Shown one piece after another: positions 33,505 to 52,313 of a stretch of DNA of 64,000 nt (position 1 is the stretch's first letter; every line of letters starts with the position of its first letter). The notes beneath the pieces were generated by a model that made no database searches, was not told the DNA's origin, and was given only the letters and a program-made list of their open reading frames with translations. This DNA is from Basilea psittacipulmonis DSM 24701 (GTDB taxonomy: Bacteria; Pseudomonadota; Gammaproteobacteria; Burkholderiales; Burkholderiaceae_B): positions 1,674,001 through 1,738,000 of the forward strand of contig NZ_CP009238.1 in the NCBI RefSeq assembly GCF_000743945.1, read 5' to 3'. The translations under genes were made by a program, and so were the position numbers.

Positions 33505-34968
33505 ATGTTTAACAAATATATTATTCTTTTAAAAAAGCACATACGCCATCCTAAAAATCATTTAAAACGTCTTTCTAAAAAAACCGTACAGTTCTCTATT
33601 ATCTTGATTGGGGCTGCGTTTGTGGCAGGCGTGTCCATGATTTTTGCACACCTAGCAGACTGGGCCATTCATCTAAACGCTCATTGGGTCAGAGAAATGC
33701 CTTGGTTACCTTGGATCATCCTACCATTGGGCTTGCCACTTTTAAGATTTTTAGTCACCCGCTTTGCTCCCTACTCAGTCGGTTCTGGCATCCCTCAAAT
33801 CATCGCCAGTCTTAGTTTAAAAGACAGTTCATATGGTCGTAACAAATTAACCTCCTTATTTCAAGCGTTATTAAAAATCCCTTTTACCTTTCTGGCCTTA
33901 TTAATTGGTGCATCCGTAGGTCGCGAGGGTCCATCTGTTCAAGTCGGAGCGGCGGTCATGTACGCATGGGGCAAATTATGCAAAAAATGGAATCTCACTA
34001 TTCAAGGGTTTAAAGCTCAAGAATGGCTAGCGGCTGGAGCTGCCAGTGGTTTAGCAGCTGCATTTAATGCACCTTTGGCGGGTGTTATTTTTGCGATTGA
34101 AGAGTTGGGCAAAGGCTTAAATATTCTTTGGCACAGAGTCGTTTTACTAGGGGTGTTGGCCTCAGGTTTCTTTGTGGTCGCCTTAATGGGGAACAACCCT
34201 TATTTTGGAAAATTCAATGGCGAAGCACTCGACGAGTATATGTGGTTATGGGTATTGGTCTGTGCAGTTGTTTGCGGTATTACGGGCGGATTGTTTGCTC
34301 GATTATTAAGCAAAGGATACGCGTTTTTTGCACCTGCTCGTGCCAGAAATTTTTTACGTAATCATCCCTATATTGTTGCTTTTTTTCTTGGTTTAATCGT
34401 TGCCAGCATTGGTTACCTCACAAACTTCTCTTCGTTTGGAACCAGCTACGATGTTGCCGATCATGCATTGCGATTTCAGGAACAATACATCAACCACGAA
34501 ATATTTGGCATTAGTAAATTAATCGCTACCGTTGCCTCTTATTGGTCAGGCATTTCTGGCGGTATCTTTACTCCTGCACTTACTACAGGAGCGGGAATAG
34601 GACTGCATCTTAGCGGTCTGTTCAATATGTGGCCACATCAAGATATTCTTGTTTTATTGTGCATGGCAGCTTTTTTATCCGCCGCTACACAAGCGCCCAT
34701 TACCAGTGCTGTCATTGTAATGGAAATGGTCGGTTCACAACCCATGTTTTTTTGGTTAATGTTAGTCGCTATCTTTGCCTCTATGGTTTCTAAACAAATC
34801 TGCCCACATCCGTTCTATCATTTTGTGGCATTACGCTTTAGACAAAGAGCCATTGAGGAAAACAAACAATACGAACAACGTCTTGAAACAGCAAAAAATC
34901 AAGAAAAAATTCAGCAGCAAGCTTTTCAAGATGAAGTCCAAGAAGCACTCAATGCTGTGAAAAAATAA
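33505..34968 (+). CDS. clcA: ClC-family chloride/proton antiporter
   Basis: This protein of about 487 residues, with roughly ten or more membrane helices, carries the three ClC anion-selectivity motifs: SVGSGIPQI, VGREGPSVQVG with the gating Glu, and GISGGIFTPALTTGAG. The internal Glu in FAIEELGKG matches the proton-path Glu of exchangers, so H+/Cl- exchange is more likely than a channel. The C-terminus is a short Glu/Gln-rich coiled coil without CBS domains. The frame is open from a TTG at 33481; the ATG at 33505 (MFNKYI) is preferred. Confidence 0.92.
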   Translation: MFNKYIILLKKHIRHPKNHLKRLSKKTVQFSIILIGAAFVAGVSMIFAHLADWAIHLNAHWVREMPWLPWIILPLGLPLLRFLVTRFAPYSVGSGIPQIIASLSLKDSSYGRNKLTSLFQALLKIPFTFLALLIGASVGREGPSVQVGAAVMYAWGKLCKKWNLTIQGFKAQEWLAAGAASGLAAAFNAPLAGVIFAIEELGKGLNILWHRVVLLGVLASGFFVVALMGNNPYFGKFNGEALDEYMWLWVLVCAVVCGITGGLFARLLSKGYAFFAPARARNFLRNHPYIVAFFLGLIVASIGYLTNFSSFGTSYDVADHALRFQEQYINHEIFGISKLIATVASYWSGISGGIFTPALTTGAGIGLHLSGLFNMWPHQDILVLLCMAAFLSAATQAPITSAVIVMEMVGSQPMFFWLMLVAIFASMVSKQICPHPFYHFVALRFRQRAIEENKQYEQRLETAKNQEKIQQQAFQDEVQEALNAVKK

Positions 34969-35346
34969 GCCTACTCACCACCATCTTTTTTATACCACTC
35001 GTATTAAAGGTAGTGGTTGCAGATCATACAGTATATCTCGCGATAATTCCTTTTTAGACAACTGTTAATAAAGGGGGTTCTACCTTATTCTCCCTATTTA
35101 AGTAACTTTTTGGTGACTGAGCAACTGTCACGGTCGTGTTTTAACATTCATTTTTAGTATTGTTTATTAAACTAATGTCACCCTATCCATCCGTCTTTAC
35201 GATACATGATGGAGGGGTGTTGAAGAGTTTATCCATCCACAAAAAATCTATCCGTCAACACTAGCTACTTGTAACTAGTGACATCAGCCAATAAGCATTG
35301 AATGATGATAAGTGTTTATCGCAGTCGTGTTTGTTAACAAAAAGAT

Positions 35347-35376
35347 AAAAAAAAGCAGTGCCTAAACACCGCTTTT
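35347..35376 (-). terminator. rho-independent terminator of the predicted small RNA
   Basis: AAAAGCGGTG pairs with CACTGCTTTT around TTTAGG. Eight T follow on the minus strand. Confidence 0.85.
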
Positions 35377-35429
35377 AAACAATCAGTGCCTAAGCACCTA
35401 TGGAGAATTAATCAGAAAACATCAATTAA
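35347..35429 (-). ncRNA. predicted Fur-regulated small RNA (about 83 nt)
   Basis: Downstream of the Fur-box promoter on the minus strand lies a non-coding stretch of about 83 nt. Its first part is A/U-rich with an unpaired UUCUCC that could pair with ribosome binding sites. Then comes a small GUGC-UUAG-GCAC hairpin (35386-35397 region). Last is a 10-bp terminator stem (35351-35376, one G:U) with eight U at 35347-35354. The two hairpins share the near-repeat AGTGCCTAARCACC. The layout matches iron-sparing RNAs such as RyhB, PrrF and NrrF in logic, though I do not recognise the sequence itself. Confidence 0.65.
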
Positions 35430-35434
35430 GGTTT

Positions 35435-35471
35435 AATTTTATTGAAAATAATTATCATTTTCAATAAAATT
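35435..35471. promoter_or_regulatory. Fur box inside a palindromic sigma70 promoter
   Basis: A perfect 15-bp inverted repeat (AATTTTATTGAAAAT and complement) flanks a 7-nt centre. The 19-bp core GAAAATGATAATTATTTTC (minus strand) matches the classical Fur box at 16 of 19 positions. On the minus strand TTGAAA and TAAAAT are exactly 17 bp apart (-10 at 35436-35441). By symmetry the same spacing exists on the plus strand, so transcription could be bidirectional. Iron-bound Fur would cover the promoter. Confidence 0.75.
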
Positions 35472-35582
35472 CTCCTTTTTGAGAAAAATAAATAATTTTA
35501 TCTGTGTATTGATTGATTTAACACCACCAACCCGCGCATAAACACAGGGTTTCAGCCCCTAAGCTTTTACACCATTACATCA

Positions 35583-36071
35583 CTAAAAAACATAGGGCTC
35601 TGTCAACAATCGGCTACCATGAAATATTAACGGTTTTTTCTCTTGGTATCCAAACGCTTGCACTTTAGACACTAACAGGTAATGGTCGCCTGTGTCTAAA
35701 CAAACTTCATGTTCGCAGTTAAACCAAGCAGCGGTATGTTGCGAATCGATATCAAGAAATGGGGGATTTAGGTTTAGATCCACGCCAGCAAATCGTTCTT
35801 CTTGAGATCCCGTCGCAAATTTTTTAGCTAAAGATTCTTGCGAACTAGACAAAATATGTAAACGATAAGGGATGCGTTCTTGTATCAATGGGACTAACTG
35901 AGATTTTTTGCTTAAACACCAGCTCACCAATGCAGGCTCCAAAGAAACAGAAGCAAATGAACTTAACGTCATCCCATAAGATTTTTGAGTCTCTGGATGA
36001 TATATCGTGACAATCGCAACCCCTGTTGGAAAGCGTGCAAATGCTTTCTTTAACGCTTGATGATCATTCAT
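35583..36071 (-). CDS. flavin reductase family protein (FMN-binding)
   Basis: This 162-residue split-barrel flavoprotein is of the flavin reductase/DIM6-NTAB type. It has the FPTGVAIVT opening, GMTLSSFASVSLEPALVSWCL, RFAGVDL and a conserved acidic/His end (DTGDHYLLVSKV, PLIFHGSRL). It would reduce free FMN or FAD with NAD(P)H for a partner oxygenase, or act on its own. It sits 8 bp downstream of pdxH, an FMN enzyme, and is very likely co-transcribed with it. The physiological partner is unknown. Confidence 0.88.
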   Translation of the reverse strand: MNDHQALKKAFARFPTGVAIVTIYHPETQKSYGMTLSSFASVSLEPALVSWCLSKKSQLVPLIQERIPYRLHILSSSQESLAKKFATGSQEERFAGVDLNLNPPFLDIDSQHTAAWFNCEHEVCLDTGDHYLLVSKVQAFGYQEKKPLIFHGSRLLTEPYVF

Positions 36072-39728: not shown

Positions 39729-42700
39729 TTACCACTGGTAGCCGATACCAACTGTTCCGCCGACATCACCACGCGTATTGGTGGTTCCAGATGCTTTAAT
39801 GACCACTTTACCATTGTCACTAATGCTGGATACGCCAATAGCAATCGCACTTTGTCCGCGGAAGGTACTACCTGCAATAGCCACCATGTTCTTACCCGGG
39901 CGATAAGCCTGTGGTAAGCCTGCTGTTGCCATCGCATTCGCCACACCGGCACTTAGATCTTTATCCAAGTTATCGATCTGTTTGCCTAAAGCACTGATCG
40001 CCTGCGAATTACGTGCCACCTGCATATTGGTTGCATGTAACTGACTACCGTTGATCGCATCGGTTGAAGTTGCCGAAATCACGCCAGGAGCTACATGTTG
40101 TAACTGACGTTCAGCACCTTCAGTACCAAAGGACACAACAGCTGGACCGGTTGGGTTCTGGTCGTTCACCGTTAAGCCGGCGACTTCACCGTCAAATGCC
40201 GCATAATAACCATTATTATCTTGTGTTGGTTTATGTGCTGCTTTTGCTTTTGAACCTGCACCGATAGCCACAGAGCCTGATGTAGCGTCTTGTTCAACAA
40301 CCGCATCATCATTATCGCCGGTACTACCTGCTTTGAAGTACTTATTGGCCTGAGTAGCTGCTTTCAACTGCGATACGTTAACGGCATCGGTGTCTGCAGT
40401 GCCTGCGGCCACATTGGTAATCTTCTGACTACCTGCATCGATACCAGTTTTCTTCACACTTGGGCCGTCTTTAATCGTTAAGCCTTCTGTCGTGACGCTG
40501 GTATCACCAGCTTTCAGACTACCAGTATCACCTAAGTCCACGTCCTTAGCCAATTTCACTACCAAGTTGCCACCTTCATTGACAACGCCGATGTTGCCTT
40601 TAGTCAACTGGGTTGCATCAGTCGCACCACCTTTGATCGTTAAGGTCTCGCCAAGTGTCTTCGATACCGCCTGACCATCATCACCTTGGAAGCTTAACTT
40701 GCTCTCCTTAATACCTTTAACAGCATTTTGAATTGCAAATAATTGGCTACCATTCACTGCATCGGTGCTAGCTGCGCTAATATCGCCAGCAGCCACGCCA
40801 GTAATCTTGTTACCACCGTTATACAAGCCATCTGCAGAGATGCTGACTGTCTTGCCATCAGCTCCCATATAAGTGCTGCCTGCCGCCATATGTAAGGCTT
40901 TGTTACCTTGATCATCTGTGCTGATCACGCCCATATCTGATACCGATGTACCGTTGGACTTATCAGCCACCTTACCAACAGTCAAGCCTTTGTCGCCATC
41001 TAGCGTTACGTTAGCCTTACCTTCCTTGTTATTCAAGGTCACCTTACCTGTTGAGTCTTTTTTACCCAATGTTACTTGGTCGTTTAAGGCAACTTTCACG
41101 GCATTATTATCCACCGATGTAGTGATATTCTGATTATCGCCATTCACAGTAATGGTATTACCTAAATCAGCTTTAACCTCGTTATTATCATCAGCTTTCA
41201 GACCAAATCCACCTGTAACAGAGGAGGTGATCGCGTTCATCGCATTTTTCAAGTCACCAATATTAGCAGCATTAGTCAAAGTATCATCTTTTGCATCAGC
41301 TAGGTTAGTACTTCCTAAACCACTAGCCACCTTCGTGATCTGTTTACCGCCCGCATCAATGCCTGTAGACGTTACTTTCACCGGTCCTACTGTCAAGCCT
41401 GTGCTATCCAAGGTGTTATCACCCGCTTTGAACGTACCGCCTGTAATTATGCCTGTTGCGGTGATGTCTTTTAAGCCTGTCAATGACTCAGCTAGTTTCA
41501 CCACTAAAGCACCATCTTTGCTCTCTACGCCGATGTTCTTGTCGGTTAGAGTGCCTGTCGCGCCACCTTTAATCGTTAAGGTATCACCTAGTTTCTTAGC
41601 AATTTCTTGGTTATCATCGCCTTGGAACTTCAAGCCTTTATCTGTCAACTCAGTCTTCGCTGTGTCAATCGCACTATAAACGGTTCCGCCCGTCACAACA
41701 TCAGTATTGCCATCTTCTACCTTACCGTCTTTCTTCACAGCTAAGTTATAAGTATCTCCAGCGCCATTTGTGCCTTCTGTCTTCGTCACGGTCACGCTAG
41801 CATCGTCTGATTTAACTGTTGTCTTAGCTGCTTCGATCGCTTTATTAACAGTATCACCTGTGACTAAGCCTGTGTCATCTTTAGCTACCTTACCGTCAGC
41901 TTTCACGTCCACTTTAACCGTGCTATCTGTCAACGTTACCGTTGTATGATTACCATCTGCAAACGTCACTGTATCCCCTGGCGCCACAGTCTTCGTCGTA
42001 CCAGCACTACCTACTTTTAGGTTCCAACCTTTGTTGGCAGTTGTTTCCACCGCTTGCAACTGACTATAGTTCACCGCATCGTTAGCGTTAGAACCTGCAG
42101 CCACGTTCGTGATCTTCTGACTACCCGCATCAATACCTGTAGACGTTACTTTCACCGGTCCTACTGTCAAGCCTGTACTATTCAAGGTGTTATCACCCGC
42201 TTTGAACGTACCACCAGTAATCGTTCCTGTTGCATTGATGTCCTGTAAACCAGTTAGCGATTTCGCTAATTTCACCACGAGGCTATCACCATCTTTAACC
42301 ACCTTGATGTTGCCATCAGCTGTTTCACCTGTCGCGCCACCTTTGATCGTTAAGGTATCGCCCAATGACTTCGTTACCACCTGACTATCATCGCCTTGGA
42401 ACTTCAAGCCTTTATCTGTCAATTCAGTCTTCGCTGTGTCAATCGCGCTATAAACCGTTCCGCCCGTCACAACATCAGTGTTGCCACTTACTACTTGACC
42501 GTCTTTCTTCACAGATAAGTCATATTTCTCACCTGTTGAATCAGTCGCCTCAGTCTTCGTTATGGTCACGCTATTGTCTTTAGACTCAACCGTTGTCCTA
42601 GACACTTTCTTCGCATCTTCAATCGCTTTATTAACCGCATCGCCAGTTACTAAGCCTGTGTTGCCACTTGTTACCTGACCATCAGCTTTCACGTTCACTT

Positions 42701-45700
42701 TAACCGTGCTATCTGTCAACGACACCGTTGTATGATCGCCATCTGCAAACGTCACTGTTCCTTCTGGTTTAACCGTTGTCGTATTAGAACCCACTTTTAA
42801 GTTCCAACCTTTGTTAGCAGTTTCTGCTGCACTCTTCGCGGCGTTTGCTGTGGTTTGTGCATTATCTGCTTTCGTTTCCACCGCACTTAATTGACTATAG
42901 TTCACCGCATCAGTACCAGCAGTACCATTTGCCACCTTCGTGATCTTCTTACCGCCTGCATCAATACCGCTCGTAGTCACACTTGGCCCGCCTGTAATCG
43001 TTAAGCCATTGCTGTTCAAGCTTGCTTTTCCATCATCTCCAAACGTAATGCCGTCTGCTGATACTTTCGTATCGCCTGCTTTCACGCTACCGTTCGCACC
43101 TAAGTCCACGTCCTTAGCCAGTTTCACTACTAAAGCACCATCTTTGCTCTCTACGCCGATGTTGTTGCCGGTTAGAGTACCTGTCGCACCTCCTTTAATG
43201 GTTAGCTCTTCGTTCAATTTCTTCGCAATCGTGTCACCACTATCACCTTTGAACTTCAAGCCATCTTCTAATGTCGCTACGGTGTGCTGTTTGTTATCTG
43301 GATCTGTGTACACAATACGGGTGATGCTATTGCCATCTACACCGGCTTTACCCGCTTCGCCTGTCGCACCATTCTGACCATTCGTGCCGTTCGCTCCGTC
43401 TTTGCCTGCAATCGCAATGGTTGTGCCGTTCGTACCGTCTTTACCTTTTAACACAACGGTCTGAGTTTCTAATTGCTCAGTGCTTGCATTAATGGTCACA
43501 GTACCGTCACTATTCTCCAAGCTCACGTTCTTACCGGCTTTCAACGTCACTTTCTTGTCTTTAGCTTCAACTTCCTTAGTTGTTGTACCATCGTTGGTTG
43601 TCGCTAACGTCCATTGATCCGCTTGAACAGCTTCTTGAGCATCACTAATCGCTTTATCTAACTGTTCTTTATTGACCGCATCAGTATTAGCTGTACCCTC
43701 AGCTACGTTCGTGATCTTCTGACTACCCGCATCAATACCTGTAGACGTTACTTTCACCGGTCCTACTGTCAAGCCTGTACTATTCAAGGTGTTATCACCC
43801 GCTTTGAACGTACCACCAGTAATCGTTCCTGTTGCATTGATGTCCTGTAAACCAGTTAGCGATTTCGCTAATTTCACCACGAGGCTATCACCATCTTTAA
43901 CCACCTTGATGTTGCCATCAGCTGTTTCACCTGTCGCACCACCTTTAATGGTTAACATCTCACCTAGTTTCTTCGCTACTGCCTGACTATCATCGCCTTG
44001 GAACTTCAAGCCTTTATCTGTCAATTCAGTCTTCGCTGTGTCAATCGCGCTATAAACCGTTCCGCCCGTCACAACATCAGTATTGCCACTTACTACTTGA
44101 CCGTCTTTCTTCACAGATAAGTCGTACTTCTCACCTTCTGTTGCTGTCGCTGCTGTCTTCGTCACGGTCACGCTATTGTCTTTAGACTCAACCGTTGTCT
44201 TAGACACTTTCTTCGCATCTTCGATCGCACTGTAAACATCGCCACCTTTCACTAAGCCTGTGTCACCACTTGCTACTTGTCCGTTAGCAACAACATTTAC
44301 TTTCACGGTATTGCTACTACTATCCAACTCTACCTTCGTATTCGTACCATCTGCAAACGTCACTGTTCCTTCTGGTTTAACCGTTGTCGTATTCGTACCT
44401 ACTTTTAAGTTCCAACCTTTGTTAGCAGTTTCTGCTGCACTCTTCGCGGCGTTTGCTGTGGTTTGTGCATTATCTGCTTTCGTTTCCACCGCACTTAACT
44501 GACCTTTATTGACCGCATCGCTATCAGCAGTACCATTTGCCACCTTCGTGATCTTCTGACTTCCAGCATCGATACCTGTAGACGTTACTTTCACCGGTCC
44601 TACTGTCAAGCCTGTGCTGTCCAAGGTGTTATTACCGGCTTTGAACGTACCACCAGTAATCGTTCCTGTTGCATTGATGTCCTGTAAACCAGTTAGCGAT
44701 TTCGCTAATTTCACCACGAGGCTATCACCATCTTTAACCACCTTGATGTTGCCATCAGCTGTTTCACCTGTCGCACCACCTTTGATCGTTAAGGTATCGC
44801 CTAGTTTCTTCGCTACTGCCTGACTATCATCGCCTTGGAACTTCAAGCCTTTATCTGTCAATTCAGTCTTCGCTGTGTCAATCGCGCTATAAACCGTTCC
44901 GCCCGTCACAACATCAGTATTGCCACTTACTACTTGACCGTCTTTCTTCACAGATAAGTCGTACTTCTCACCTTCTGTTGCTGTCGCTGCTGTCTTCGTC
45001 ACGGTCACGCTATTGTCTTTAGACTCAACCGTTGTCTTAGACACTTTCTTCGCATCTTCAATCGCTTTATTAACCGCATCGCCAGTTACTAAGCCTGTGT
45101 TGCCACTTGTTACCTGACCATCAGCTTTCACGTTCACTTTAACCGTGCTATCTGTCAACGACACCGTTGTATGATCGCCATCTGCAAACGTCACTGTTCC
45201 TTCTGGTTTAACCGTTGTCGTATTAGAACCCACTTTTAAGTTCCAACCTTTGTTAGCAGTTTCTGCTGCACTCTTCGCGGCGTTTGCTGTGGTTTGTGCA
45301 TTATCTGCTTTCGTTTCCACCGCACTTAATTGACTATAGTTCACCGCATCAGTACCAGCAGTACCATTTGCCACCTTCGTGATCTTCTTACCGCCTGCAT
45401 CAATACCGCTCGTAGTCACACTTGGCCCGCCTGTAATCGTTAAGCCATTGCTGTTCAAGCTTGCTTTTCCATCATCTCCAAACGTAATGCCGTCTGCTGA
45501 TACTTTCGTATCGCCTGCTTTCACGCTACCGTTCGCACCTAAGTCCACGTCCTTAGCCAGTTTCACTACTAAAGCACCATCTTTGCTTTCTACGCCGATG
45601 TTGTTGTCAGTTAACTTGTTTGACTCAGTCACACCACCTTTAATGGTTAAAGTCTCGTTCAGTTTCTTCGCAATCGCGTTACCGCTATCACCTGCAAACT

Positions 45701-48700
45701 TCAAGCCATCTTCTAAGGTCGCTACCGTGTGCTTGGTCGTACCATCTGGATCGGTGTACACGATACGGGTGATGCTATTGCCGTCTAAGCCTACTGCACC
45801 TGCATCGCCTGTCGCACCATTCTGACCATTCGTGCCGTTCGCTCCGTCTTTGCCTGCAATCGCAATGGTTGTGCCGTTCGTGCCATCGCCTAACTTCACG
45901 GTCTTACTCTCTACCGTATCTGTATTCGCGTTGATCGTCACCGTTCCATTCGCATTCTCTAAGCTTACGTTCTTACCAGCTTTCAACGTCACTTTCTTGT
46001 CTTTAGCTTCAACATTCGTAACAGTGCTACCGTCGTTCGTTGTCGCTAACGTCCATTGATCGCCTTGTGCCGCCGTAATCTGACCAGTCACGCCCTCAAT
46101 CGCTTTATCTAACTGTTCTTTATTGACCGCATCAGTATTAGCTGTACCATTCGCTACGTTCGTGATCTTCTTACCGCCTGCATCAATACCTGTAGACGTT
46201 ACTTTCACCGGTCCTACTGTCAAGCCTGTACTATTCAAGGTGTTATCACCGGCTTTGAACGTTCCACCACTAATCGTGCCTGTTGCTGTAATATTCTCTA
46301 AGCCTGTTAGCGATTTCGCTAATTTCACCACGAGGCTACCATCAGTGCCTTTAACCACCTTGATGTTGCCATCAGCTGTTTCACCTGTCGCGCCACCTTT
46401 AATCGTTAAGGTATCACCTAATGACTTCGTTACCACCTGACTATCATCGCCTTGGAACTTCAAGCCTTTACCTGTCAACTCAGTCTTCGCACCTTCGATC
46501 GCCGTATTAACCGCATCGCCAGTTACTAAGCCTGTGTTACCACTTGCTACTTGTCCGTTAGCCTCAACATTTACTTTCACGGTATTGCTACTACTATCCA
46601 ACTCTACCTTCGTATTCGTACCATCTGCAAACGTCACGCTTCCTTCTGGCGCAATGTTCTTCGTTGTTGAACCTACTTTTAGGTTCCAACCTTTATTGGC
46701 TTGAGTTGTTGCCGCTTCTGCTGCACTCTTAGCAGTTTCCGCTGCTGTCTTAGCGGCGTCTGCTGTGGTTTGTGCTTTATCTGCTTTCGTTTCCACCGCA
46801 CTTAATTGACTAAAGTTCACCGCATCAGTACCAGCAGTACCATTCGCCACCTTCGTGATCTTCTTACCGCCTGCATCAATACCGCTCGTAGTCACACTTG
46901 GGCCGCCTGTAATCGTTAAGCCATTGCTGTTCAAGCTTGCCGCACCACCTTCAAACGTAATACCGTCGGATCCTACTTTTGTCTTATCTACTTTCAGACT
47001 TCCAGTGCTACCTAAGTCCACGTCCTTAGCCAGTTTCACTAACAATTCGCCATCTTTGCTTTCTACGCCGATGTTGTTGTCAGTTAACTTGTTTGACTCA
47101 GTCACACCACCTTTAATGGTTAAAGTCTCGTTCAGTTTCTTCGCAATCGCGTTACCGCTATCACCTGCAAACTTCAAGCCATCTTCTAAGGTCGCTACCG
47201 TGTGCTTGGTCGTACCATCTGGATCGGTGTACACGATACGGGTGATGCTATTGCCGTCTAAGCCTACTGCACCTGCATCGCCTGTCGCACCATTCTGACC
47301 ATTCGTGCCGTTCGCTCCGTCTTTACCTGCTATCGCGATGGTTGTGCCGTTCGTGCCATCGCCTAACTTCACGGTCTTACTCTCTACCGTATCCGTATTC
47401 GCGTTGATCGTCACCGTGCCATTCGTATTATCCAAGCTGACGTTCTTACCGGCTTTTAACGTCACTTTCTTATCTTTAGCAGTAACATCTGTGCTGCTCG
47501 TTCCATCGTTCGTCGCTAACGTCCATTGATCGCCTTGAGCTGCCGTAATCTTGCCTGTTACAGTCTCAATCGCTTGATCTAACTGGCCTTTATTGACCGC
47601 ATCGTTTTTACCACTACCATCGGCTACGTTGCTGATTACCTTGTTACCAGCATCAATACCAGCTTTCTTCACGCTTGGACCACCACTGATCGTTAAGCCT
47701 TCTGTCGTGATGCTCGTATCACCCGCCTTCAACGTACCACCAGTAATCGTTCCTGTTGCATTGATGTCCTGTAAACCAGTTAGCGATTTCGCTAATTTCA
47801 CCACGAGGCTATCACCATCTTTAACCACCTTGATGTTGCCATCAGCTGTTTCACCTGTCGCGCCACCTTTGATCGTTAAGGTATCGCCTAGTTTCTTCGC
47901 TACTGCCTGACTATCATCGCCTTGGAACTTCAAGCCTTTATCTGTCAATTCAGTCTTCGCTGTGTCAATCGCGCTATAAACCGTTCCGCCCGTCACAACA
48001 TCAGTGTTGCCACTTACTACTTGACCGTCTTTCTTCACAGATAAGTCGTACTTCTCACCTTCTGTTGCTGTCGCTGCTGTCTTCGTCACGGTCACGCTAT
48101 TGTCTTTAGACTCAACCGTTGTCTTAGACACTTTCTTCGCATCTTCAATCGCTTTATTAACCGCATCGCCAGTTACTAAGCCTGTGTTGCCACTTGTTAC
48201 CTGACCATCAGCTTTCACGTTCACTTTAACCGTGCTATCTGTCAACGACACCGTTGTATGATCGCCATCTGCAAACGTCACGCTTCCTTCTGGCGCAATG
48301 TTCTTCGTTGTTGAACCTACTTTTAGGTTCCAACCTTTATTGGCTTGAGTTGTTGCCGCTTCTGCTGCACTCTTAGCAGTTTCCGCTGCTGTCTTAGCGG
48401 CGTCTGCTGTGGTTTGTGCTTTATCTGCTTTCGTTTCCACCGCACTTAATTGACTAAAGTTCACCGCATCAGTACCTGCAGTACCATTCGCCACCTTCGT
48501 GATCTTCTTACCGCCTGCATCAATACCGCTCGTGGTGACACTTGGGCCGCCTGTAATCGTTAAGCCATTGCTGTTCAAGCTTGCCGCACCACCTTCAAAC
48601 GTAATACCGTCGGATCCTACTTTTGTCTTATCTACTTTCAGACTTCCAGTGCTACCTAAGTCCACGTCCTTAGCCAGTTTCACTAACAATTCGCCATCTT

Positions 48701-51700
48701 TGCTTTCTACGCCGATGTTGTTGTCAGTTAACTTGTTTGACTCAGTCACACCACCTTTAATGGTTAAAGTCTCGTTCAGTTTCTTCGCAATCGCGTTACC
48801 GCTATCACCTGCAAACTTCAAGCCATCTTCTAAGGTCGCTACCGTGTGCTTGGTCGTACCATCTGGATCGGTGTACACGATACGGGTGATGCTATTGCCG
48901 TCTAAGCCTACTGCACCTGCATCGCCTGTCGCACCATTCTGACCATTCGTGCCGTTCGCTCCGTCTTTACCTGCTATCGCGATGGTTGTGCCGTTCGTGC
49001 CATCGCCTAACTTCACGGTCTTACTCTCTACCGTATCCGTATTCGCGTTGATCGTCACCGTGCCATTCGTATTATCCAAGCTGACGTTCTTACCGGCTTT
49101 TAACGTCACTTTCTTATCTTTAGCAGTAACATCTGTGCTGCTCGTTCCATCGTTCGTCGCTAACGTCCATTGATCGCCTTGAGCTGCCGTAATCTTGCCT
49201 GTTACAGTCTCAATCGCTTGATCTAACTGGCCTTTATTGACCGCATCGTTTTTACCACTACCATCGGCTACGTTGCTGATTACCTTGTTACCAGCATCAA
49301 TACCAGCTTTCTTCACGCTTGGACCACCACTGATCGTTAAGCCTTCTGTCGTGATGCTCGTATCACCCGCCTTCAACGTACCACCAGTAATCGTTCCTGT
49401 TGCATTGATGTCCTGTAAACCAGTTAGCGATTTCGCTAATTTCACCACGAGGCTACCATCAGTGCCTTTAACCACCTTGATGTTGCCATCAGCTGTTTCA
49501 CCTGTCGCGCCACCTTTAATCGTTAAGGTATCGCCTAGTTTCTTCGCTACTGCCTGACTATCATCGCCTTGGAACTTCAAGCCTTTATCTGTCAATTCAG
49601 TCTTCGCTGTGTCAATCGCGCTATAAACCGTTCCGCCCGTCACAACATCAGTGTTGCCACTTACTACTTGACCGTCTTTCTTCACAGATAAGTCGTACTT
49701 CTCACCTTCTGTTGCTGTCGCTGCTGTCTTCGTCACGGTCACGCTGTTGTCTTTAGACTCAACTGTTGGTTTAGCCTTATTAATCGCACTGTAAACATCA
49801 CCACCACTTACCACTTTGGTTTCGTTTTCTGCTACTTTGCCTTTGTTTAAAGTTAGTTGGTAGTTATGGTTAACCCCATCTGTTGATGTATCAGAAGCGG
49901 TAATATCTGCTGTAGTAGCCACCGTTGTTTCACTACCACCACCCGTGATTTGAAGTTTTTTAAGTTGTGCAACGGTGACGGCATCATCATCTAATACACC
50001 ATCTGCTACGTTAGTGATACGGCGAGTAAGTGCATTAGTCATTGAGACATCATTAATAGAGCCATAGTTAGAACTACCTGCACCGACTGATACAATACCT
50101 TTCGTACTTTGATCTTTGTTTGTTAAATAGGATTTTTGACTTTCAGTAACAGTGTCCTCGCCCTCAGTAACACGTGAAAAGGTACCTAGTGCGACAGAAT
50201 TGTCCATCTCTGTTCGTGCATAATAACCCAGCGCTATTGAATTATTTACTACTTTATCTTGAGTATAATTACTACCGTTTTTGGTATTGTAAGTATTTGA
50301 AGTATAACCTACAGCTGCACTACGACCAATTGCTATCGAATTATTGCCACTAGCATAGCCGCTGTTACCAATCGCAATGGCATCTGTTGCATTGGCTATT
50401 GAAACACGTCCTAATGCCAATGAACTTTCTCCAATAGCCTTACTACTATAACCAAATGCCACAGAGTCAACACCAGAAGCATTCGCCACAGGACCTATTG
50501 CTGTCGCATTTGTATTCGTCGCTTTTGCACTACCACCAATCGCAATGGCATCTTTACCCGAAGCTTTTGCCACATAGCCTAACGCCAATGCTCTTTCAGC
50601 ACTTCCCTCTGCACTATTACCAATAACAATTGCATCCGTAGCATTCGCTGTCGCGAATCGCATCAAGGCTAATGCACTTTTTCCACTTGCATTCGCATTA
50701 TTACCAATGGCAATCGCATCCACTGCGCTATTTGATTTTCCTGCTTCTTTCAATGCAGTAATAGCATCTTGCCGAGCTTTATTTTTGGTTTCATAGTCCG
50801 CATCTGCTTTTGTCACACGGTCACGTGCCGCACTAATTGCGGTGGCATTATTATCCGTATAAGCCTGCTTAAGTGCCGTATTCGCTGCATTTTGCTCATT
50901 AATCGCCGCATTTCTTGCATCATTTGCAGTATTAACCGCTTGACTTAAAGTCTCTAAATTATCATTCCAGCCAGCAGAAGCACCTGAACCAAATACGATC
51001 ACATCTTTCGCCCCTGCTTTACTATTTCTACCTACCGCATAGGCTTGCTCCGCCACAGAACGGGCACTATCACCCAAACTGACACTACTGTTATTATAGG
51101 CATGGGCAACAGCACCGATGGCAATACTCCTTTCACCATAGGACTTCACGCTATTACCGATCGCAATCGCATCGGATCCTCGAGAATCTGCTAAACGTCC
51201 CAATGCCATCCCAGCATAAGACCATGCTTGCGCACCATCACCAATAGCCATGGCAGATGCCACATTTGACTCATTATATGCCTCGTATAACTTCTTCTTC
51301 GCCGCACCAACCTGCTCCTGCGTAACGGTTTTCCCATTATATTGAAGACCATTATTAAAATACATCTGCAAGTCAGTATATTCTTTCTCTAACTTCGCAA
51401 TCTCTTCCGAATTACCAGCTCGTGTTTTCGAACCAATCGCAATACCTTCTTTGGAACCTGCGAATGCTGATGCCCCCTGAGCAATTGAATTAGTAGCCGT
51501 CGCTGTTGCATAACCCACCGCAACAGTATTATCACGTAATGCCTTAGATGCTCCGCCTAATGCGGTTGCAAAGTTACCTTCTGCGGTTGATCCTGTTCCT
51601 ACCGCCAAAGCCACCCCCCCATCAGCCTTAGCCTTATTACCAAATGCCGCTGCTGCTCCAGACCAATATGCACCTAATGACTTAGATTTAATCGCCGCAA

Positions 51701-52313
51701 CTAAAGGATTATCAGGGTTATATGCCAGCGTATTACCATAAGCATCATGATAATAGGTCACCCCAATAGAGTACACATTACCTGTCGCCGAAGCACCATC
51801 CCCCACTACGACACTACCGCGGCCTGACGCTGTCGCACCAGTATATCCACCGCCAATGGCAATGGTACCTACCGAATTAGCATTAGCTGCTTTATTATTC
51901 GTATAATTAGCTAAATTAGCCGCAGAGTCAGTAGAATTACTTGTATTTAAAACACCGCCATGAATAGTTTGATTAAAGCCCAATGGTAGGACCCAACCTG
52001 TTCCCTCATAACTGACCTGCGATTTACCACCGCCTAACTGCAAACCTTTATAAATATCGGCAATCGTTACATTGGAAACATTCGTTCCTGAAGTCGAGAT
52101 TATTTGCCCATCTTTAATCTCAACGGTTGCCCATGCTGGTGTTCCTATTAGTCCCACCAACACCGCCAGCACTGATAACGGGAAGTAACGCAAGACCCCT
52201 GCTTGCTCTAAACTCTGCCCTGCAGACGATTTCACATGTCCTTTAGCAAATTCTGATGCTACTTCACAACGATTTTTGTTACGATTAAAAATAACTTTAA
52301 AAATCTTATTCAT
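39729..52313 (-). CDS. giant trimeric autotransporter adhesin (YadA-like)
   Basis: This is a 4194-residue type Vc secreted adhesin. It begins with an extended signal peptide (MNKIFKVIFNRNKN...), a hydrophobic segment at about 43-60 and cleavage after PAWA. The head (about 100-780) has many YadA-type SxAIGxxAxA repeats and two inserted coiled coils. The stalk (about 800-4090) repeats neck modules (ITKVANGTAGTDAVN type), Trp-ring-like QANKGWNLKVG modules and four short Gly-X-Y stretches. The C-terminal YadA anchor (AGVANAMATAGLPQAYRPGK to VGIGYQW) ends in Trp. The ribosome binding site is AAGGA, about 6 nt before the ATG. Three identical chains should form a fibre anchored in the outer membrane for host adhesion. 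G9 upstream and G7 inside suggest phase variation. Confidence 0.97.
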   Translation of the reverse strand: MNKIFKVIFNRNKNRCEVASEFAKGHVKSSAGQSLEQAGVLRYFPLSVLAVLVGLIGTPAWATVEIKDGQIISTSGTNVSNVTIADIYKGLQLGGGKSQVSYEGTGWVLPLGFNQTIHGGVLNTSNSTDSAANLANYTNNKAANANSVGTIAIGGGYTGATASGRGSVVVGDGASATGNVYSIGVTYYHDAYGNTLAYNPDNPLVAAIKSKSLGAYWSGAAAAFGNKAKADGGVALAVGTGSTAEGNFATALGGASKALRDNTVAVGYATATATNSIAQGASAFAGSKEGIAIGSKTRAGNSEEIAKLEKEYTDLQMYFNNGLQYNGKTVTQEQVGAAKKKLYEAYNESNVASAMAIGDGAQAWSYAGMALGRLADSRGSDAIAIGNSVKSYGERSIAIGAVAHAYNNSSVSLGDSARSVAEQAYAVGRNSKAGAKDVIVFGSGASAGWNDNLETLSQAVNTANDARNAAINEQNAANTALKQAYTDNNATAISAARDRVTKADADYETKNKARQDAITALKEAGKSNSAVDAIAIGNNANASGKSALALMRFATANATDAIVIGNSAEGSAERALALGYVAKASGKDAIAIGGSAKATNTNATAIGPVANASGVDSVAFGYSSKAIGESSLALGRVSIANATDAIAIGNSGYASGNNSIAIGRSAAVGYTSNTYNTKNGSNYTQDKVVNNSIALGYYARTEMDNSVALGTFSRVTEGEDTVTESQKSYLTNKDQSTKGIVSVGAGSSNYGSINDVSMTNALTRRITNVADGVLDDDAVTVAQLKKLQITGGGSETTVATTADITASDTSTDGVNHNYQLTLNKGKVAENETKVVSGGDVYSAINKAKPTVESKDNSVTVTKTAATATEGEKYDLSVKKDGQVVSGNTDVVTGGTVYSAIDTAKTELTDKGLKFQGDDSQAVAKKLGDTLTIKGGATGETADGNIKVVKGTDGSLVVKLAKSLTGLQDINATGTITGGTLKAGDTSITTEGLTISGGPSVKKAGIDAGNKVISNVADGSGKNDAVNKGQLDQAIETVTGKITAAQGDQWTLATNDGTSSTDVTAKDKKVTLKAGKNVSLDNTNGTVTINANTDTVESKTVKLGDGTNGTTIAIAGKDGANGTNGQNGATGDAGAVGLDGNSITRIVYTDPDGTTKHTVATLEDGLKFAGDSGNAIAKKLNETLTIKGGVTESNKLTDNNIGVESKDGELLVKLAKDVDLGSTGSLKVDKTKVGSDGITFEGGAASLNSNGLTITGGPSVTTSGIDAGGKKITKVANGTAGTDAVNFSQLSAVETKADKAQTTADAAKTAAETAKSAAEAATTQANKGWNLKVGSTTKNIAPEGSVTFADGDHTTVSLTDSTVKVNVKADGQVTSGNTGLVTGDAVNKAIEDAKKVSKTTVESKDNSVTVTKTAATATEGEKYDLSVKKDGQVVSGNTDVVTGGTVYSAIDTAKTELTDKGLKFQGDDSQAVAKKLGDTLTIKGGATGETADGNIKVVKDGDSLVVKLAKSLTGLQDINATGTITGGTLKAGDTSITTEGLTISGGPSVKKAGIDAGNKVISNVADGSGKNDAVNKGQLDQAIETVTGKITAAQGDQWTLATNDGTSSTDVTAKDKKVTLKAGKNVSLDNTNGTVTINANTDTVESKTVKLGDGTNGTTIAIAGKDGANGTNGQNGATGDAGAVGLDGNSITRIVYTDPDGTTKHTVATLEDGLKFAGDSGNAIAKKLNETLTIKGGVTESNKLTDNNIGVESKDGELLVKLAKDVDLGSTGSLKVDKTKVGSDGITFEGGAASLNSNGLTITGGPSVTTSGIDAGGKKITKVANGTAGTDAVNFSQLSAVETKADKAQTTADAAKTAAETAKSAAEAATTQANKGWNLKVGSTTKNIAPEGSVTFADGTNTKVELDSSSNTVKVNVEANGQVASGNTGLVTGDAVNTAIEGAKTELTGKGLKFQGDDSQVVTKSLGDTLTIKGGATGETADGNIKVVKGTDGSLVVKLAKSLTGLENITATGTISGGTFKAGDNTLNSTGLTVGPVKVTSTGIDAGGKKITNVANGTANTDAVNKEQLDKAIEGVTGQITAAQGDQWTLATTNDGSTVTNVEAKDKKVTLKAGKNVSLENANGTVTINANTDTVESKTVKLGDGTNGTTIAIAGKDGANGTNGQNGATGDAGAVGLDGNSITRIVYTDPDGTTKHTVATLEDGLKFAGDSGNAIAKKLNETLTIKGGVTESNKLTDNNIGVESKDGALVVKLAKDVDLGANGSVKAGDTKVSADGITFGDDGKASLNSNGLTITGGPSVTTSGIDAGGKKITKVANGTAGTDAVNYSQLSAVETKADNAQTTANAAKSAAETANKGWNLKVGSNTTTVKPEGTVTFADGDHTTVSLTDSTVKVNVKADGQVTSGNTGLVTGDAVNKAIEDAKKVSKTTVESKDNSVTVTKTAATATEGEKYDLSVKKDGQVVSGNTDVVTGGTVYSAIDTAKTELTDKGLKFQGDDSQAVAKKLGDTLTIKGGATGETADGNIKVVKDGDSLVVKLAKSLTGLQDINATGTITGGTFKAGNNTLDSTGLTVGPVKVTSTGIDAGSQKITKVANGTADSDAVNKGQLSAVETKADNAQTTANAAKSAAETANKGWNLKVGTNTTTVKPEGTVTFADGTNTKVELDSSSNTVKVNVVANGQVASGDTGLVKGGDVYSAIEDAKKVSKTTVESKDNSVTVTKTAATATEGEKYDLSVKKDGQVVSGNTDVVTGGTVYSAIDTAKTELTDKGLKFQGDDSQAVAKKLGEMLTIKGGATGETADGNIKVVKDGDSLVVKLAKSLTGLQDINATGTITGGTFKAGDNTLNSTGLTVGPVKVTSTGIDAGSQKITNVAEGTANTDAVNKEQLDKAISDAQEAVQADQWTLATTNDGTTTKEVEAKDKKVTLKAGKNVSLENSDGTVTINASTEQLETQTVVLKGKDGTNGTTIAIAGKDGANGTNGQNGATGEAGKAGVDGNSITRIVYTDPDNKQHTVATLEDGLKFKGDSGDTIAKKLNEELTIKGGATGTLTGNNIGVESKDGALVVKLAKDVDLGANGSVKAGDTKVSADGITFGDDGKASLNSNGLTITGGPSVTTSGIDAGGKKITKVANGTAGTDAVNYSQLSAVETKADNAQTTANAAKSAAETANKGWNLKVGSNTTTVKPEGTVTFADGDHTTVSLTDSTVKVNVKADGQVTSGNTGLVTGDAVNKAIEDAKKVSRTTVESKDNSVTITKTEATDSTGEKYDLSVKKDGQVVSGNTDVVTGGTVYSAIDTAKTELTDKGLKFQGDDSQVVTKSLGDTLTIKGGATGETADGNIKVVKDGDSLVVKLAKSLTGLQDINATGTITGGTFKAGDNTLNSTGLTVGPVKVTSTGIDAGSQKITNVAAGSNANDAVNYSQLQAVETTANKGWNLKVGSAGTTKTVAPGDTVTFADGNHTTVTLTDSTVKVDVKADGKVAKDDTGLVTGDTVNKAIEAAKTTVKSDDASVTVTKTEGTNGAGDTYNLAVKKDGKVEDGNTDVVTGGTVYSAIDTAKTELTDKGLKFQGDDNQEIAKKLGDTLTIKGGATGTLTDKNIGVESKDGALVVKLAESLTGLKDITATGIITGGTFKAGDNTLDSTGLTVGPVKVTSTGIDAGGKQITKVASGLGSTNLADAKDDTLTNAANIGDLKNAMNAITSSVTGGFGLKADDNNEVKADLGNTITVNGDNQNITTSVDNNAVKVALNDQVTLGKKDSTGKVTLNNKEGKANVTLDGDKGLTVGKVADKSNGTSVSDMGVISTDDQGNKALHMAAGSTYMGADGKTVSISADGLYNGGNKITGVAAGDISAASTDAVNGSQLFAIQNAVKGIKESKLSFQGDDGQAVSKTLGETLTIKGGATDATQLTKGNIGVVNEGGNLVVKLAKDVDLGDTGSLKAGDTSVTTEGLTIKDGPSVKKTGIDAGSQKITNVAAGTADTDAVNVSQLKAATQANKYFKAGSTGDNDDAVVEQDATSGSVAIGAGSKAKAAHKPTQDNNGYYAAFDGEVAGLTVNDQNPTGPAVVSFGTEGAERQLQHVAPGVISATSTDAINGSQLHATNMQVARNSQAISALGKQIDNLDKDLSAGVANAMATAGLPQAYRPGKNMVAIAGSTFRGQSAIAIGVSSISDNGKVVIKASGTTNTRGDVGGTVGIGYQW
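46621..49770 (-). repeat. 1644-bp near-identical tandem duplication in the adhesin stalk
   Basis: The DNA from about 46621 to 48120 recurs from about 48265 to 49765 with an offset of 1644 bp, almost base for base. One 3-bp insertion (a DGDSL versus GTDGSL difference) changes the offset to 1647 near 49456. Unit one ends at 48264. It encodes about 548 residues per copy (protein residues about 850-1900), including one Gly-X-Y stretch. The near identity points to recent duplication or ongoing gene conversion. Confidence 0.88.
51614..51620 (-). repeat. G7 run in the adhesin head coding sequence
   Basis: Seven consecutive G in the coding sense encode part of ADGGVALAVG at about residue 232. The run is short but is the longest G tract in the adhesin frame. 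Confidence 0.6.

Follow-up and report, generated by a model that had tools for sequence, protein, structure and literature searches.

Why does a promoter with a predicted Fur site superimposed on it stand in a gap between two convergent genes, neither of which needs it? We asked this of a 64,000-nt stretch of the genome of Basilea psittacipulmonis DSM 24701 (contig NZ_CP009238.1, positions 1,674,001 to 1,738,000), here called the window, whose own numbering is used below unless another locus is named. A sequence-only reading had proposed that the gap holds a Fur-repressed small RNA (sRNA) gene. Our analysis points the same way: the element is probably, though with considerable room for doubt, a stand-alone Fur-repressed gene on the minus strand encoding a functional, trans-acting, base-pairing sRNA of about 80 nt. 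This reading is supported by the anatomy of the locus, in which operator and promoter are superimposed, a terminator follows at once, no open reading frame (ORF) intervenes and the flanking genes converge. It is also supported by the presence of genes for Fur (154.8 bits) and Hfq (101.6 bits) and by the likeness of the operator to one at a TonB receptor gene.

The centrepiece is a near-perfect palindrome that carries the Fur box GAAAATGATAATTATTTTC at its centre and two face-to-face promoters of the form TTGAAA-17-TAAAAT (Table 1). The palindromic promoter and the Fur box inside it had both been recognized from the letters alone, and both were recovered here, the promoter in either direction. 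Scored against the 19-bp Fur consensus, the box was the only match with at most 3 mismatches in the window, where shuffled sequence gave a mean of 0.02. Between 30000 and 42000 the minus-strand promoter and its mirror image were the only 10-of-12 matches among 29 promoter-like sites, a total that is itself at shuffle level (30.6). We further examined a 464-kb sample of the genome (the window and 20 further stretches, together about 24% of the 1.96 Mb in one contig), in which one other site had palindrome arms matching at 17 or more of 18 positions.

Nine distinct places in the whole genome lay within 3 mismatches of the Fur consensus, and the reversed control pattern gave none. The ORF lists place four of them between genes: the present site, a site upstream of a TonB receptor gene, another upstream of an ApbE-like gene (a name given by eye) and a fourth at locus L031. 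Among the four genes with the TonB receptor domain PF07715, one had an upstream box with 3 mismatches and another had upstream boxes with 4. The operator core TGAAAATAATTATCATT differs from TGAGAATAATTATCATT, found in these 4-mismatch boxes upstream of the TonB receptor gene, at 1 of 17 positions, a near-identity that adds weight to reading the present site as a Fur box. When up to 4 mismatches were allowed, the 464-kb sample held five Fur-box matches, two of which belong to the present palindrome. Three promoters in the sample overlapped a Fur-box match, and of these only the minus-strand one described here had a terminator in the next 150 nt. With 55 terminators of this kind counted over the two strands of the 464 kb, about 1% of randomly placed sites should have a terminator that close, and a higher share of sites in an intergenic gap. 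Being the sole Fur-box promoter with a terminator in the sample adds weight to the predicted sRNA gene. As a separate observation, a second FUR-family protein is encoded at locus L121 (G000:C1:93934-94290, 54.8 bits) and is possibly of the Zur or PerR type.

The terminator starts 59 nt beyond the -10 element on the minus strand and has the longest stem among 13 terminator-like sites between 30000 and 42000 (shuffles give 9.1 sites), which agrees with the strong rho-independent terminator noted earlier. The segment 35347-35429 on the minus strand folds with -23.3 kcal/mol (z -3.8), and 1 of 200 shuffles was as stable; much of this stability is owed to the terminator, the segment 35347-35379 alone giving -13.1. 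The motif GGUGYUUAGGCACU is present twice in the RNA, 28 nt apart. Of the two similar hairpins that had been described, the repeat is thus real, but the two-hairpin picture is uncertain because the 3' part folds about equally well as one long hairpin in which the repeats pair with each other (-23.3, versus -22.2 for two hairpins). The 5' stretch of the RNA including CUCCAUA is predicted to be open. We also considered the hairpin GGTGYTTAGGCACT as a dispersed uptake or terminator motif and rejected this for the window, in which 7 matches with at most 3 mismatches stood against a shuffle mean of 6.6; five of these matches to the hairpin 14-mer lie outside the two RNA copies. A weak third copy (68%) of a 22-nt unit containing the hairpin repeat was seen at 35241-35262.

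The absence of a coding frame between promoter and terminator held up, in that no minus-strand frame of at least 15 aa overlaps 35347-35429. That the RNA serves as a small mRNA, or has a dual function and also encodes a short peptide, is therefore hardly credible. There is an AUG near the RNA 5' end, and a 10-codon frame, MIIIFNKIKP, overlaps the promoter (by eye); however, the frame of the 5' AUG has only four codons (AUG UUU UCU GAU UAA, by eye) and the 10-codon frame begins upstream of the predicted RNA start.

Table 1. Features of the predicted sRNA locus and related sites. Coordinates refer to the window unless a locus is named.
Feature	Position	Strand	Basis or remark
Near-perfect palindrome, 37 bp (operator plus two face-to-face promoters)	35435..35471	.	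Repeat search; arms of 18 nt, 94% complementary, spacing 1 nt
Candidate Fur box GAAAATGATAATTATTTTC	35444..35462	-	16/19 against the 19-bp consensus; at palindrome centre
Sigma-70-type promoter TTGAAA-17-TAAAAT for the minus-strand RNA	35436..35464	-	10/12
Mirror-image promoter TTGAAA-17-TAAAAT, toward the flavin reductase gene	35442..35470	+	10/12; possible antisense RNA
Predicted small RNA, ~80 nt	35347..35429	-	Start 35427-35429 inferred from -10 element; end inferred in U tract
UUCUCC, candidate pairing region	35402..35407	-	Unpaired probability 0.9-1.0 for CUCC, 0.3-0.4 for the two U
Hairpin repeat, first copy GGUGCUUAGGCACU	35385..35398	-	Repeat search
Intrinsic terminator with second hairpin copy GGUGUUUAGGCACU	35351..35376	-	11-bp stem with 4 G-C, then U tract
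Gap between genes	34969-35582	.	Flanking genes convergent; no gene there needing a promoter
CLC-type chloride channel gene	33505..34968	+	PF00654; convergent flank of the RNA gene
Flavin-reductase-like gene	35583..36071	-	PF01613; RNA gene on same strand
Core-complement site at hscB-like gene	L090, G000:C1:1046371-1046387	-	8 bp, mismatch, 5 bp (by eye)
Further Fur-like sites, same genome	L071:1176-1200, L073:1115-1133		Upstream of two TonB receptor genes
Further Fur-like site, same genome	L031:1501-1519		Gap between two genes
Further Fur-like site, same genome	L035:1501-1525		Between ApbE-like gene and opposite-strand gene

The convergent gap had likewise been described correctly, with the CLC channel gene on the plus and the flavin reductase gene on the minus strand, and the window ORF list holds no ORF of at least 60 aa within it. 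There is a promoter in both directions because the operator site is a palindrome, and this raises the question of whether the working product might lie on the other strand. The mirror promoter, which scores equally, would then produce an antisense RNA, repressed by iron, that crosses the flavin reductase gene, either alone or together with the sRNA. No terminator was found on the plus strand 20-150 nt downstream of the mirror promoter, so that such an RNA would run into the flavin reductase gene. On the other hand, the lack of that terminator also means that no defined product is marked, and the plus-strand frames just past the promoter are short (20 codons with TTG start at 35479-35541, and 17 codons at 35442-35495). 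The geometry of palindromic Fur sites may also by itself create a mirror promoter, and we regard a working antisense product as improbable. Elsewhere in the window, one uninterrupted frame of 4194 codons runs along 39729-52313 on the minus strand and by its look encodes a giant surface protein.

Several results weigh against a functional sRNA gene. With respect to the operator, five of the nine genome-wide sites within 3 mismatches lie inside open coding frames, so that a box with 3 mismatches does not by itself settle the matter, and at the loci of the remaining two of the four TonB receptor genes no Fur box better than 6 mismatches was found. These coding-frame sites indicate that chance matches occur, and promoters scoring 10 of 12 are common (131 on both strands of the 464 kb); the locus could then be an AT-rich palindrome that merely resembles a Fur box and happens to lie ahead of the terminator of the neighbouring operon. 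We consider such a coincidence very unlikely, given the shuffle expectation per window and the empty reversed control cited above, the overlap of the box with the promoter that scored highest in 12 kb, and its likeness to the site upstream of the TonB receptor gene.

Searches among relatives gave a second group of such points. With the 90-bp RNA body as query against 267 other genomes of the family, which we take to be Alcaligenaceae, 13 non-self matches with E<=0.05 were obtained where about 13 are expected, and the conservation in related genomes that had been put forward as a check was thus searched for and not found. A blastn search of 61 genomes, the source genome among them, with a 161-bp query returned, besides the locus itself, short matches only, the best of which (E 4.3e-4, 26 nt) lay within the palindrome. 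The Rfam database includes RyhB, PrrF and NrrF as families. No Rfam family matched the RNA, the only matches in the window at gathering score being two tRNAs elsewhere, and the 11 weak matches in 35200-35600 include none of these three families. The genus is represented by one genome in the set examined. The flavin reductase protein is at most 48% identical to its matches in the family, among those listed, and a scan of genome contigs with it found no relative. With no congener among the genomes examined, the failed conservation search neither confirms nor refutes the sRNA idea.

A gapped pattern (half Fur box, 22-52 nt, TTCTCCATA) retrieved 33 stretches, none of which bore a Burkholderiales name or was alike downstream; their top local score to RNA nt 34-83 was 17 (2 per match). 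A comparison with 19 loci of relatives counts in favour of the sRNA gene: four of them had a Fur box with at most 4 mismatches, at each of these four the start of an ORF of at least 60 codons lies no more than 300 nt away on one side or both, and no terminator was seen out to 260 nt. In a small-genome relative, G022, two Fur boxes are spaced 161 bp apart (L009:1505-1684) with close ORF starts on both strands; the idea of a tandem sRNA there was dropped, as ORFs begin near both sides and a terminator is absent.

Target prediction provided the third group. The target set comprised 350 called starts (about 24% of the genome) plus sdhC, sdhD, sdhA, acnD, acnB, leuC and one TonB receptor gene, the loci being named from Pfam and the starts by eye; with this coverage true targets may be missed. 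In the main test, which took accessibility from local folding and compared the 5' 31 nt with 80 dinucleotide-shuffled versions across 313 ranked starts, the top target score of the real RNA was equalled or beaten by 63 of the 80 shuffles. Matches at or below -5 kcal/mol numbered 41 against a shuffle mean of 41.8 (42 of 80 shuffles reached 41), and predictions covering the Shine-Dalgarno sequence numbered 23 against a mean of 24.0, a count at least equalled by 44 of 80 shuffles. For the UUCUCC stretch this means that the predicted unpaired state of CUCC stands, but the special suitability for pairing with ribosome binding sites claimed for it does not. A genome search for the core complement gave 8 non-self matches, compared with 5 in the reversed control.

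Individual candidates fared no better, and the targets in the tricarboxylic acid cycle suggested by the sequence-only reading were not supported. In the main test acnB ranked 16 of 313 and sdhA 22, followed by an hscB-like gene (83), the TonB receptor gene (86), sdhC (112), acnD (183), leuC (284) and sdhD (297), with predictions overall at shuffle level. A slower scoring ranked acnB 21, acnD 43, sdhA 46, the hscB-like gene 48 and the TonB receptor gene 67 among 352, with leuC (240), sdhC (261) and sdhD (287) lower. It gave 15 matches at or below -5 kcal/mol against 8, 3 and 10 in three shuffles, an excess that was not repeated with 80 shuffles, and its best target, a Bcp-like peroxiredoxin gene (by eye), had a poorer score than the top target in any of the three shuffles. 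A first scoring, in which hairpins were allowed to open and no shuffles were made, ranked sdhA 27, the hscB-like gene 28, acnB 54 and acnD 97 of 357, ahead of the TonB receptor gene (102), sdhD (142), sdhC (235) and leuC (245). One of the core-complement matches falls exactly on the start codon of the hscB-like gene, directly after an iscA-like gene (names by eye), which is a suggestive place. With accessibility it does not rise above chance (28/357, 48/352 and 83/313 in the three scorings), and the gene is not claimed as a target. Target prediction from a single genome has little power, so this null result removes support and does not refute the sRNA.

The missing conservation and the target signal at shuffle level also fit the main rival, a relic Fur promoter. 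Here an iron gene would have been lost from the gap and its operator left behind, the terminator would serve the incoming flavin reductase-pdxH transcript, and the short RNA would be a by-product. Between the flavin reductase gene and the RNA gene there is only a weak terminator-like hairpin (35561-35545), so that the strong terminator may be that gene's own. However, palindrome and promoters are all intact, with the box still matching at 16 of 19 positions, which is unlike decay, and the terminator lies at the usual distance for an sRNA and contains a duplicated hairpin. We therefore hold a relic to be unlikely, and continue to favour the Fur-repressed sRNA gene.

If the sRNA gene is functional, Fe-Fur in iron-rich cells would occupy the palindrome, cover the spacer and the greater part of the -35 element, and block RNA polymerase. 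A drop in iron would open the promoter, and RNA synthesis would begin near 35427-35429 and stop in the U tract that follows 35351. Hfq would probably be bound at this 3' U tract, and the 5' part of about 31 nt with the open CUCCAUA would pair with mRNAs. The outcome might be an iron-sparing or iron-uptake adjustment, as with RyhB, NrrF and HrrF.

The predicted RNA is most likely a functional analogue of RyhB, PrrF, NrrF, HrrF and BrrF, by comparison of their features, and is not claimed as a homologue. The comparisons below follow excerpts of the cited sources. NrrF of Neisseria, which is also betaproteobacterial, Fur-controlled and non-coding, represses sdhCDAB and petABC (PMC5586341), whereas the present RNA has no Rfam match and sdhC is a poor predicted target (112/313; 261/352). 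BrrF of Burkholderia cenocepacia comes from the same order, is small and is induced by low iron (PMC7377471). It differs in lying downstream of hemP (PMC7377471), while the present RNA lies between the CLC channel and flavin reductase genes and has its own Fur-box promoter; this comparison is by description. HrrF of Haemophilus influenzae is likewise intergenic, with Fur boxes in its own promoter region and a rho-independent terminator, and is about 97 nt long in Haemophilus-like species (PMC4144887). In contrast to the present RNA, for which conservation was not found, HrrF has a 36-nt core (nt 29-64) that is fully conserved across Pasteurellaceae, and its stability is Hfq-independent (PMC4144887), while Hfq use by the present RNA is a proposal.

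RyhB of Escherichia coli and PrrF1/2 of Pseudomonas each have a Fur site directly before them (PMC7377471), as by prediction does the present RNA, for which a similar iron-sparing logic is proposed. The present RNA differs from them in the absence of an Rfam match, and as no second copy of the RNA body was found in its own genome it does not form a PrrF1/2-like pair. IsrR of Staphylococcus is also Fur-repressed; it has 174 nt and three C-rich regions, is present in all screened Staphylococcus genomes, and its single-stranded C-containing stretches are proposed to meet Shine-Dalgarno sequences (PMC9410917). The present RNA has one CUCC, and its pairing with ribosome binding sites is not above chance. 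A literature search in which BrrF and NrrF appeared named no Fur-controlled sRNA of an Alcaligenaceae genus in titles or abstract beginnings among the matches listed. A term search did not find Fur as a whole word in the main text of three papers on Bordetella sRNAs (PMC3110155, PMC11722255, PMC8386462).

A bolder scenario, which we regard as a long shot, would make this an independently evolved RyhB-type regulator confined to one isolated Burkholderiales genus. It would have been born from a near-perfect bidirectional Fur operator that fires two RNAs simultaneously under iron starvation, a trans-acting terminated sRNA with a duplicated hairpin and a long antisense RNA silencing the flavin reductase operon. 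The predicted element belongs to a well-known type of device, and its sequence is new. Iron-responsive sRNAs occur in many bacterial groups without a common sequence, which suggests repeated independent origin, and a lineage-specific sRNA with so clean an operator would be a good place to study the origin of such RNAs, and would hint at the way in which this organism cuts iron-protein synthesis under iron shortage.
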